From Coprinus comatus (Eukaryota > Basidiomycota > Agaricomycetes > Agaricales > Agaricaceae): a DNA stretch of 64,000 nucleotides. Shown piece after piece: positions 11,444 to 62,778 of this stretch. Positions within the stretch are counted from its first letter, which is position 1; each line of letters starts with the position of its first letter. The stretch is taken from positions 62,001 through 126,000 of the forward strand of contig JAWPGT010000025.1 in NCBI GenBank assembly GCA_034638255.1. Direction: 5' to 3'. Below the pieces are notes generated by a model. It saw only the letters and a program-made list of their open reading frames with translations. It searched no databases and was not told the DNA's origin. Both the position numbers and the translations under genes were made by a program.

Positions 11444-12193
11444 GAGGAGTTTTTTTTTCTTTGTGTTATTGGATTTTTTTTGCTTTTTTTTTCTGGAATG
11501 AATTGAGTTTTTCTTATCTATACATATCTGAAAGCTTACCTCCTCCTCGGTTATCCCATTCATCGACGTCCTGTGTACGGAGCAATCTGGTCCGAATTTG
11601 GTTTTTAGCGGAAGGGACTGTTTGTCCCCTCCCAACGGACCAGCTTCTCCGGCCGGGCCTCCCGGAATAAATATAGCAAACATACCGGGCCGGTTAAATT
11701 GCCAAGTTCTATAACCGACCCCGCACCCGCGACCTTTCTCCACACCCCATGGTTCTGATTCTCTTACCCCATAATCACAAGTTGTAGATGGTTAAACGTG
11801 CTCATATCCCAGACCTATTAAAAACCGCAAACTTGAATATATGTGGATAAAATTCGGAGCAAAAGGACGGACGATCTCCTTGAATTTTCTAACTTCTTTG
11901 TAGTAATCGGAAAATAGGGAAAGGTTGTAAGGTATACCTACGGTACAAAATGTGAATATGTGTTCTCTAACCCCACTCCTTCTCCCCTTCTCCGCATGTG
12001 TGCAGGTTAAGGTATTGTTCAGCTGACCTATCTTTTTGGTCTTGGGAGAGAGCGGTTAATTTTCGGAGGTGGGAGATTTCAATATGAATTATGATTCAAG
12101 TGATGTGCTTTGGATCTTTTGGTGTATTTCAGTTTCAGGCTTGGGCTTCTCTTGTTCCGGAGGTGGGGTGTCCGGGTGTTGACGTTGAGATGA
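11444..12193. other. Spacer before the GH28 gene
   Basis: A T-rich 3' flank of the synthetase is followed by about 600 bases without a credible gene. Frames here lack homology or codon structure. The right end is the promoter of the GH28 gene. Confidence 0.4.
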
Positions 12194-12202
12194 TATATAA
12201 AG
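12194..12202 (+). promoter_or_regulatory. TATA box of the GH28 gene
   Basis: TATATAAAG lies 89 bases before the preferred GH28 start codon, so transcription would begin around 12225-12235. The position fits a regulated secreted-enzyme gene. Confidence 0.55.
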
Positions 12203-12290
12203 ATCATAGGATTGTGTTTTTGTTACCTCTCTTTCTCCCCTCAGCCCTCGAAAATCGAACCAAAGAAGACAAGAAGGTTCCTTTCATCCA

Positions 12291-14467
12291 ATGTCGCCCA
12301 CGTCCACATCTACATCCACTACTTCCGAAACTTTTTCTACTCATAACATCAACAATTATTCTTCATTCTGTATCTGTATATGCAGGAGAATGTATAGTTG
12401 AACATGCTGATGATTTGAATGTGGATGATTCGTTTGCTATTTTGAGAGCGTTTGCGAATTGTAGAGAGGATTCGGTTATTACTTTTGTTGAATCGAATTA
12501 TACGGCTTATACACCTGTTTCGTTGACTGGATTACGTATGTATTTTTCTTTTTTGTTCTTTCCTTGTGCTCTGGGGTTTACTAATAATGTTGTTTTTGGG
12601 AAACAGGAAATGTTACGGTTCGATTGAATGGGAATTTGCTTCTTCCTTCCAATGTGTCGAGGGTACAACATGAGATTAATAATACTAGTAATCAACCTTC
12701 CGTATGTTGTTCTTCGCATTTACCATTTATATATCTCACTTACTGAGACTGATGAATTTGGATGGAATAGACATATGCGACACCATGGTTTTACATTCAA
12801 GGAGAAGATGTTTCAATTACTGGTTCAGATGAAGCTCAATGGGGTGCATTCCATGGATTCGGTCAACAATGGTGGGATGTTGGAAATCGTGTATGTTCTT
12901 CTTTTTACTAAAAATCTTCCCACTATTTTTTTTCTCAAATTCTTCGACAAATTACTATTTACTAACTTGTTTTTTATTACTCTTAAAATTTGTATATAAT
13001 AGGTATTGAGACCACAATTGGCAACATTCAATGTAACCAATGGTTTACTACGAAAACTTAAGGTTATCAAACCTATTGCTTGGGGTTGGAATTTACCTGG
13101 AAAGAATATTAGAGTTGAAGATCATTTTGTTGATGCTGCTCCTAATAATGGAACAAGGGATGTTACTACTAGTTTCCCTTTTAACACGTACGTCCTTTTC
13201 TACGTCCTGTCTGACTGAATTTATAAATTTGATACTGACTTATTATCTTCGGGTTCTAACTGATAGTGATGGTACGTTCTACTCTTCACATTTTCCGTCC
13301 CGCTCCTAGGCCCTAAGTCATCACATTAACAAATGCATATTTATATTATTTTTCTATACAGGCTTCAACTTGTCAGGAGACAATATTACTGTAGATGGTT
13401 ATTATGGCCATAACGGTGATGATTGTATATCAGTCGTGAATGGTGGAAAGAATATTGTTGTTCAGAACGGTTATTGTGGTTTTTCTTCTCATGGTTTATC
13501 TATCGGTTCATTGGGAAGGAATGGAGCTCAACATACTGTTCAAAACGTTTTGTTTAAGAATTGGACTATGGATGGTGCTGTTTACGGTGCTAGGGTGAGT
13601 TCTTTGTCTTTTTCTTTTTCTTTTTCTGTTTTCTTGAATGGTGACTAATTTAAAATTGGTTGTGGTTCTTTTTTTTTAGTTTAAGAGTTGGACTGGTGGT
13701 CAAGGGTTTGCGGAGAATGTTACTTGGGAGGATATTACACTTATTAATGTATCTACCGGTATCTTCGTTACTCAAAAGTAAGTCTCGTTATCCCTCCTTA
13801 TCTCAATCTCTCTCTTTTTTTTTTTACTTGGTCATTGATCGTTTTCTTTTCTCATATAGCTACTACGATCAAGATAAGGGTGCTCGTCCAGAAAATACAA
13901 ACCAGACTAGTACCAGGATTTCGAATATCAAGTTTAAGAACTTTCAAGGCACTTTGGCTACAAACTGGAGTCAGTATCTCATTTAATTATCTATTGGAGA
14001 TTTGTATTATTTTTATTTATCTAACGAGCGTGATCCAATTCAATAGCCGATGGAACTTGTATCAGTAATCCATGCTGGAATTACGTAGAAGGAATTGACA
14101 GCACCAAAGCTATCGTATTTGATCTATTCCCTGGAACCTGTACGTTTTTGTTATTCTTCTTTCTTTCTCTCTGATTTAAATGCAAGTATGTTTGCTGATG
14201 CGTCAAACCTTTTGTTTAGCACATAACATATCAGTAGAAGACATTGACATCAAAACAGCTTCAGCTGGAGATGTTTCAGTGTTATGTGATCCTGCTGCTC
14301 TTGAACAAGGTGAACAAGATACACTTGGTTTCCAATGTCAAAATGGACCTTTGAGTATTCGAAATGTGAATGCTGGGAATGGTGCTACTGGGTTAACTGT
14401 TAGTACGATTGGAGGTATGAGTGTTATGGTTGGATTGGCGGTTGTGGGAGTCAGTTTATTGTTTTGA
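12291..14467 (+). CDS. Secreted GH28 polygalacturonase-like enzyme with membrane-anchor tail
   Basis: Hydrolyses pectin-type galacturonan outside the cell, by family GH28. Ten exons: 12291-12535, 12607-12701, 12771-12890, 13003-13187, 13267-13271, 13362-13594, 13680-13777, 13860-13969, 14047-14139, 14220-14467. The right-handed beta-helix motifs are all present: NTDGF (Asp about 216), GDDCIS (Asp 236-237), SSHGLSIGS (His about 260) and ARFKSW as the RIK motif. Many N-glycosylation sites are visible. The tail GLTVSTIGGMSVMVGLAVVG is hydrophobic and ends the protein, suggesting a GPI anchor or membrane span. The ATG at 12291 opens a good signal peptide only if one extra base in the first CCC run is removed; the product is then about 476 residues. 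Exact substrate is not resolved. Confidence 0.88.
13267..13271 (+). other. Five-base exon carrying the catalytic Asp codon
   Basis: The exon TGATG is flanked by AG (13265-13266) and GT (13272-13273). It joins AAC-AC upstream and GC-TTC downstream to give Asn-Thr-Asp-Gly-Phe, the NTD catalytic motif of GH28. Skipping it shifts the frame. Confidence 0.8.
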
Positions 14468-60870: not shown

Positions 60871-62778
60871 TTACGCCCGCAACTTGAATATCCTAGGATC
60901 AAATGGCAAACCATAAATATGTCTTTTCACATATTCATTTCGAAACAGTCCAGATGGGTCAACATTCTCCAGAACCTGTCGGAAATCGTCGAAACGGGGG
61001 TACAATTTCCTAAGATCGTCAGGTCTCATTTTGTGAGTTTTAGCCCAATGAGGTCGTCCCTGATGTCGAACAAGTATAGTTTCAAAGTTATCAAAAAGCG
61101 CGCGATAAGGAACATTAAGTCCGTAAGGCCTGTTCACAAGTGTCACAAAATGAGTCACTTCATTTTTAGTGTCGGATTTGAGAATGACTTACTTATACTG
61201 GACAATGCCTATCCAGCACGTCAACTGTCCGTTACTAGGACTAAGCCAAATATCGTCACCAGCAGAGAACCTAATCTCGATTGGGAAATGCGGCCTTAAT
61301 CCCCTATTTTCCGATAACTCTTGTTGTAGCCAAGATCGTAGTTCACGGATACATGCTTGGGCATTAGAATAAGGAATAGCCCATTCTATCGTCTCTTGGG
61401 GGTACTAAAATGACAAAATTAGTCATCCATTTTTTGTAAAAAGCGGCAACAGAGTTAAGATATAACCTACCCGACAGTCAACGTTGAATATCCGGTGCCC
61501 ATCGTCGGTAACCTCCGACTTCCTACCCGAAACCCAAAACGCATAATATTGGGTCCATATGTTCAAAGAAGAAATATATCTTCCAGAAAACAACAAGAAT
61601 TGAAGAAAATGGAAGTTGAAAGTTTCCCAGAACCAATTTCCACTCCTATTTGGGGGCTACAAAAAAAGAAGAAAGAACAGAACGCCACGACAGGGTCAAT
61701 GTTATAATCAAGCCGACGGCAAAAAAAAGAGGCCACAAGCCACTCACGTCATAAGTCCGGTCTGCTATACTGCAAATAGCTTTATCTGTAGCAGGGAACC
61801 ACCAAAACCTAACATGTTGCGCCGATTTTGTTAATTGATCCAAATCTTTCACAACATCTTCAATAAACATAGGTTCCACTTTTTCTCTCAACCTAAAAGC
61901 CGGTTCAACCTCCAATAATACTTCCAATACAAATCCAGTAGCACCAAGACCACAAAGAGTAGCAATAAAAATATCGTTTTCTTCATTTCTTGAACATGTT
62001 ATAACCCGACCGTCAGCCAATAATACTTTGAGTGCCCGTACATTTGTCGACATGACACCGTAATCGATTCCCGACCCATGAGTAGCTGTGGTGACAATCC
62101 CTCCTAATGTTTGATCAGAAATGGACCCAACGTTAATCATCGCCAAGTTATATTTGGCAAGTTCCGCGTGTAAGTCATGTAACGTGATTCCACCTTCCAC
62201 CAATACGCATCTCTTTTCAAAATCGACCTATGAGAAAGAACGAACAAAAAAAAAAGAAGAAATCATTGATGAGATTTGAGCACACCATCCAATGATAACA
62301 TGTCATAATGAAAAATGATATGATACAGATAGAGAAATGAGAATGATTGGGGGAAAGGGGTGGGTGAGGTACTGATTTTAAGAAACTGGAACCGGCTGAA
62401 TCAACAACCGAAGAAGATCGGTTGAGACAGTCGGCATTGATACCAGGAACAAAGCTTCGAAAGGATACTACCCACCTGTATTATTCGATTCATTTTAGTC
62501 AACCGTACCATGAATCCACTCGTACAAGCAAGATCACTAGGGCTATGACCGACCCCGACTACTCGAACAGTCTTGCCTTCTCGCCGCGCAAGCTCAAGGA
62601 TGAGCTTACATTGATATTCGGACTCAGGCTCAAAGATAGCGAGGGGTGAGCAATAGAATGATTGGCCCCAGTTATTGAAGTGTGAGCTGGAAGATGGAAG
62701 TGTAATGGGGTTTAAAAGATCATATAGAGAAGTCAAGGGTATATCTGAGAGCTTGGTTTCAAGCTGGGAGGAGGGCAT
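60871..62778 (-). CDS. ALO1: D-arabinono-1,4-lactone oxidase
   Basis: Last step of erythroascorbate synthesis: oxidises D-arabinono-1,4-lactone with O2, giving H2O2; mitochondrial outer membrane in yeast. Five exons (62476-62778, 61748-62227, 61471-61656, 61193-61404, 60871-61129), all phases close, giving 479 residues (yeast 526). The N-terminus has the FAD-PCMH fold: VRVVGVGHSPSDLACTSG, whose His binds FAD covalently, then LVEGGITLHDLHAELAKYN, NVGSISDQTLGG and TATHGSGIDYG. The C-terminal ALO domain ends with the family HWAK motif (QGRPHWAKTHKM) and YPRFDDFRQVLENVDPSGLF. Met at 62778 is chosen over an in-frame Met 30 codons upstream because the family begins near here. Confidence 0.93.

Follow-up and report, generated by a model that had tools for sequence, protein, structure and literature searches.

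A probable five-base exon with the putative catalytic aspartate in a GH28 gene of Coprinus comatus

Is the five-base segment that lies between two introns of a GH28 gene of the mushroom Coprinus comatus a real exon, and if so, is it always spliced into the mRNA, or does its inclusion turn a pectinase on and off? The question arose from a preliminary description of the window, by which we mean the whole stretch of 64,000 nucleotides analyzed here (positions 62,001 to 126,000 of contig JAWPGT010000025.1, assembly GCA_034638255.1).

The gene and its five-base exon

The GH28 gene, which occupies approximately 12.4-14.5 kb of the window on the + strand, was modeled by hand. Ten exons were recognized, with an open frame of 445 codons, counted from the inferred mature N-terminus, that ends in a TGA. 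The features of the model are the following (slashes mark splice sites here and below).

12385..12535, + strand: GH28 exon in which the inferred mature protein starts (GECIVEH...), from frame, splice sites and homology
12607..12701, + strand: GH28 exon, from conceptual splicing
12771..12890, + strand: GH28 exon, from conceptual splicing
13003..13187, + strand: GH28 exon 5' of the microexon, ending with FNT in phase 2 (AAC AC/)
13188..13266, + strand: intron of 79 nt, GTACGT...CTAACTGATAG, with a CTAAC that starts 11 nt before the microexon
13267..13271, + strand: microexon TGATG of 5 nt, the fifth exon of the model, from sequence and frame, with a counterpart in a paralog at L006:1857-1861
13272..13361, + strand: intron of 90 nt, GTACGT...TATACAG, in which no match to the CTRAY branch point was found
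13362..13594, + strand: GH28 exon with the active-site motifs GDDC and SHGLSIGSLG, from conceptual splicing
13680..13777, + strand: GH28 exon, the RFKSWTGG motif spanning the junction before it
13860..13969, + strand: GH28 exon, from conceptual splicing
14047..14139, + strand: GH28 exon, from conceptual splicing
14220..14467, + strand: final GH28 exon with the TGA stop, from conceptual splicing

The assignment to GH28 made in the preliminary description is borne out by the match to the PF00295 profile (131.7 bits with a cut-off of 22.9, E 4e-38); a paralog on contig C9 of the same genome scores 152.8 bits with the same cut-off. The spliced protein carries NTDGF, GDDC, HGLSIGS and RFK, that is, all the motifs that we take to make up the GH28 active site (NTD, GDD, HGxSxGS and RxK), and NTD comes solely from the microexon. 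Going by the names of its relatives alone, the product is exopolygalacturonase-like: these names include “Probable exopolygalacturonase C” and “galacturonan 1,4-alpha-galacturonidase”, and also “putative endopolygalacturonase”. The closest named relative among the matches listed (best 120 of 401) is a protein of Macrolepiota fuliginosa, presumably a member of Agaricales, with 75% identity.

The exon at 12385..12535 is a candidate for the first one of the gene. In the region 12090-12390, an in-frame ATG is missing close to where a signal peptide would be expected; the frame is open up to the ATGs at 12190, 12103 and 12091, and the ATG at 12291 sits one frame off. The seven relatives inspected have N-termini that look like leaders and span some 20 to 30 residues. 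A 5' intron, an indel or an assembly slip might account for the missing nearby start.

The coordinates proposed for the five-base exon hold to the base, both in the sequence and in conceptual splicing: the upstream donor is at 13187/13188 (AACAC/GTACGT), the exon occupies 13267-13271 (CTGATAG/TGATG/GTACGT) and the downstream acceptor is at 13361/13362 (ATACAG/GCTTCAAC). With TGATG included, the spliced product is ...SFPFNTDGFNLSGDN..., reading NTDGFN, whereas skipping of TGATG yields ...FNTLQLVRRQYYCRWLLWP and a stop 17 codons past the Thr, confirming the claim that the frame is lost without this exon. Retention of both introns also ends in an early stop (...NTYVLFYVLSD, then stop). In the numbering of the inferred mature protein, TGATG supplies the last base of the Thr184 codon, the whole Asp185 codon and the first base of the Gly186 codon. 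If internal exons of up to roughly 30 nt are counted as microexons, TGATG and its counterpart in the paralog qualify by sequence, each being a very short in-frame exon between a consensus acceptor and a consensus donor.

In alignments with two polygalacturonases of solved structure, the Asp encoded by the microexon falls on the Asp of their NTD motif, and Asp185 is thus predicted, by homology, to be catalytic. To this extent the earlier claim of a catalytic role stands. Asp185 would correspond to Asp180 of structure 1CZF. Asp180 of 1CZF is described as required for catalysis on the strength of mutation, in the excerpt of a systematic GH28 study available to us (PMC8952511).

Chance expectation and the counterpart in a paralog

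Within the 174-nt gap between the exons flanking the microexon, there are five AG..GT pairs, and the TGATG exon is the only one that preserves the frame throughout the following exon. Nine single-intron alternatives stay in frame in the range searched, and NTDG is kept in none of the nine. When the gap was shuffled with dinucleotide composition preserved, AG/NGAYG/GT appeared in 11 of 20,000 shuffles and the strict pattern YAG/NGAYG/GTRNGT in 0 of 20,000. In the genome examined (35.7 Mb, 134 contigs), the strict motif by itself is not special because its 26 occurrences do not exceed the 30 of the reversed control. Its placement is: simple arithmetic from the genome-wide count gives an expectation of approximately 6e-5 per gap of this size, and the motif is found at exactly the required place in both microexon-bearing GH28 genes. 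The donor-side pattern CCNTTYAAYAC/GTRNG occurs twice in the genome, in these same two genes, with the reversed control also giving 2.

A genome search with both proteins gave matches on contigs C25, C9 and C17 only. In the C9 paralog, the counterpart of TGATG is GGATG at L006:1857-1861, in the context TGATAG/GGATG/GTAAGT, flanked by introns of 67 and 58 nt. Identity between the two proteins is 40% (132 of 327 aligned columns), and the introns around the microexon have phases 2 and 1 in both genes. The Thr codon ends with T in the window gene and with G in the paralog, with GATG unchanged, as constraint on the coding sequence would have it.

The hand-made partial model of the C9 paralog (L006, 1000-4200) comprises 16 introns of 42-67 nt and 17 exons; apart from the 5-nt exon, five of these measure 16 or 17 nt. 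In the third GH28 gene, on contig C17, N-T-D-G is unbroken in genomic DNA, as read by eye. When the flanking introns of the window gene and the C9 paralog were aligned pairwise, the scores (-6 and -16) were above those of all 300 mononucleotide shuffles for each; this likeness was set aside as evidence, given that common ends and composition may account for the scores.

Probable traces of the microexon in public gene models

Relatives were taken as the best 120 of 401 matches to the window protein and the best 120 of 441 to the C9 protein, 223 distinct proteins in total. Split by search rank, these are 99 window-type and 124 C9-type proteins, and BLAST scores against each gene give the identical split. 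Annotated records provided 201 of the 223; the other 22 are found in raw contigs only (sources lgn or jgi) and are probably transcripts because their frame is unbroken. Pairwise-alignment contiguity is a weak test, with a value of 0.77 at the microexon site and, at some others, of 0.72 to 0.79, and we therefore relied on motifs and scar residues.

Among the 201 annotated relatives listed, N[TS]DG is present in 145 (61 of 91 window-type and 84 of 110 C9-type proteins) and absent in 56, of which 46 are without the Asp at the site and 10 still show it in damaged surroundings. Proteins in which a single active-site motif is missing typically lack this one: N[TS]DG is the sole motif missing in 47 of the 201, RxK in 5, and GDD and HGxSxGS in none. 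All 22 raw-contig relatives carry N[TS]DG, compared with 145/201 of the annotated ones (Fisher p 0.0015); the raw-contig sample is biased because skipped transcripts would break into two short open reading frames and mostly be missed. In the window-type relative P0255, located on a 247-kb contig, NTDG is uninterrupted; some lineages seem to be without both introns, and the intron pair is therefore not universal in the family. To find DNA of relatives, a pattern was sought in genome_contigs and viral_contigs; it occurred in 101 and 77 stretches, respectively, none of which encodes a relative.

The broken proteins carry recognizable scars. Because AGN codes for Arg or Ser, a model that reads through the upstream intron must place R or S in front of D, and among the proteins at this site that keep D-G without N[TS], 8 of 9 do, the exception being P0062, with T (a tenth regular-expression match, P0015, is located elsewhere in its protein and was left out). 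On the other side, an in-frame GT[AG]NG donor allows K, E, T, M or a few other residues after NTDG, and one of these four clearly follows in 6 of 9 odd proteins; of the exceptions, P0251 has K but resembles an exon skip, and neither P0006 nor P0285 agrees with the prediction. The scar in P0038 was seen in alignments and missed by the regular expression. In-frame read-through of a GTR donor predicts Y or C after FNT, and of the 28 proteins with FNT (in one case, FNI) without a following DG, 8 continue with Y or C, 6 with sequence of a later exon and 14 otherwise, with D retained in three of these 14. Decoded by hand, P0095 (Leucocoprinus) and P0219 (Pleurotus pulmonarius) look as if the two flanking exons had been joined directly, with the frame shifted upstream. 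Three models from three species, P0014, P0121 and P0125, contain FNTYG, with Tyr in place of Asp and the frame kept, as though five donor bases (GTAYG) had been counted as the exon.

Many of these scars fit putative splice sites on either side of NGATG, and we read the missing motif in annotated relatives mostly as the scars of annotation. Judging by the names of the organisms, the broken models are mainly those of Agaricales; among the C9-type ones, Polyporales are represented too, for example by Ganoderma and Trametes. Most likely, the microexon is older than the split of the Agaricales and Polyporales lineages, its conservation beyond this genome being suggested by the protein scars.

Splicing of the microexon and competing readings

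The five-base segment is very probably a real, required and conserved microexon that is constitutively included through sequential, intron-defined splicing, and not a regulatory switch. Its unique capacity to keep the frame, the copy in the paralog and the protein scars support the microexon. Since skipping and double retention both give early stops, we regard the exon as essential and as constitutively spliced in. Under this reading, two spliceosomal introns with five bases between them, within the active-site codons, would leave a microexon of the form N GAT G that carries the catalytic Asp. The short introns (79 and 90 nt here, 67 and 58 nt in the C9 gene) would each be recognized across the intron, and the microexon itself need not be recognized as an exon. 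The closeness of the first intron's acceptor to the second intron's donor would prevent both from being bound simultaneously, and the introns would therefore likely be removed in sequence; with either intron gone, the microexon would become part of a normal exon. The intron pair, common to two GH28 types of Agaricomycetes, would be old, and the microexon would have been retained since its loss kills the enzyme. For APC11, with its 1-nt exon, intron definition and successive intron removal have been proposed (PMC4674806), and among plant microexons, more had reads in which the downstream intron was removed first (PMC8831610); these and the following statements refer to excerpts of the papers cited.

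The preliminary description placed the exon far below the normal minimum size, which is overstated, given that exons of 1, 3 and 6 nt (PMC4674806) and of 4 nt (PMC9929638) are on record. The closest parallel comes from plant GH32 genes (acid invertases and fructan exohydrolases), whose 9-nt mini-exon encodes DPN of the NDPNG motif and likewise places an active-site Asp (one of three active-site residues) in a microexon. Annotation often misses this mini-exon, and a chicory allele that has lost it is described as putatively non-functional (PMC8831610, PMC4477480). The plant exon is frame-neutral, whereas the 5-nt mushroom exon breaks the frame, and the two probably have no common origin. The Arabidopsis APC11 exon is constitutive and mis-annotated in the record, as is probably the case here, although in another gene and kingdom and with in vivo tests, whereas the GH28 microexon is known from sequence (PMC4674806). 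Among basidiomycetes, P450 genes of Phanerochaete chrysosporium contain microexons of which the shortest is 6 bp, compared with 5 here, with no tie to a catalytic residue in the text examined (PMC1184071), and codon-sized microexons have been described in Tuber (PMC4986451). As for detection, a read-mapping option has been called microexon search (PMC4014442), and in Ganoderma lingzhi, very short exons were recognized worse by long reads than by short ones (PMC11590231). The systematic GH28 study refers to the removal of sequences with incorrect intron predictions and, in the text examined, makes no mention of a five-base exon (PMC8952511). We found no report of such an exon in a fungal GH28 gene in the titles and abstract starts of the open-license PMC literature. 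The kind of case is thus already known; what is new is an exon of 5 nt, in a fungal GH28 gene, with the catalytic Asp and frequent mis-annotation.

The preliminary description suggested an on/off switch. Inclusion of the exon might then be controlled, for example, by carbon source, and the pectinase would be shut off through the frameshift and decay of the skipped mRNA. The early stops produced by skipping or double retention would serve such a purpose, and there is a published fungal precedent, Xlr2 of Trichoderma virens, in which regulated inclusion of a microexon in a transcription factor is linked to the control of wall-degrading enzymes, whereas here the enzyme gene itself is split (PMC11121469). 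Also, the raw-contig protein P0225, which begins with MVLS-DGFNFSG, could derive from a transcript with the upstream intron retained and the downstream one removed; alternatively, it might come from a lineage that carries just one of the two introns. We nevertheless consider the switch improbable. The skipped product is dead, not an alternative protein, and exclusion shifts the frame, although frame-preserving exclusion is usual (not universal) for switches. RNA folding around the exon is no better than in shuffles (z -0.26). A scan of 286 proteins for the skip signature gave six regular-expression matches, of which P0095 and P0219, both annotated models, fit a direct join; no raw-contig protein does, which is weak evidence because skipped products would mostly escape such searches. 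The remaining four matches were rejected as skip forms: P0158 has a different junction, and in P0252, P0268 and P0280, the match lies elsewhere in the protein. A search with the part downstream of the exon (72 proteins) returned no raw proteins with the skip signature. Thus, the switch proposed earlier is unsupported, no evidence of regulated skipping having been found in these searches.

Just as doubtful is a variant in which slow two-step splicing of the 5-nt exon would gate pectinase production post-transcriptionally across Agaricomycetes, in two GH28 types. Transcripts with one intron left would then be held or destroyed until need, and the exon pair would be kept for this reason and not through inertia, a proposal to which we attach the same low probability.

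A decaying pseudogene, in which the five-base exon would be a chance match, is highly unlikely: the absence of an in-frame ATG near the expected signal peptide (12291 being in another frame and the in-frame ATGs at 12190 and upstream) would suit it, but the 445-codon frame over ten exons with intact active-site motifs, the counterpart in a 40%-identical paralog and the absence of the strict pattern from 20,000 shuffles all argue against it. Equally hard to credit is a one-intron junction that joins the donor at 13171 to 13362 in frame (...TRDVTT-SFNLSGDN...) and yields a protein without the Asp, similar to some public models, such as P0015, given that it deletes FPFNTDG, which is invariant in 21 alignment rows (picked from 120, with broken ones excluded), and that N[TS]DG is found in all 22 raw-contig relatives, a biased sample.

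A constitutive five-base exon would provide a clean case in which splicing close to the smallest known exon sizes can be tested in fungi, at a place where any error would inactivate the enzyme, and the presence of such an exon in two paralogs allows comparison. The exon is also a likely cause of the frequent mis-annotation, and entries in CAZyme catalogs, expression constructs and claims of “inactive” pectinases that derive from scarred models would be wrong. If inclusion were regulated after all, this would be a new route for the control of wall-degrading enzymes.
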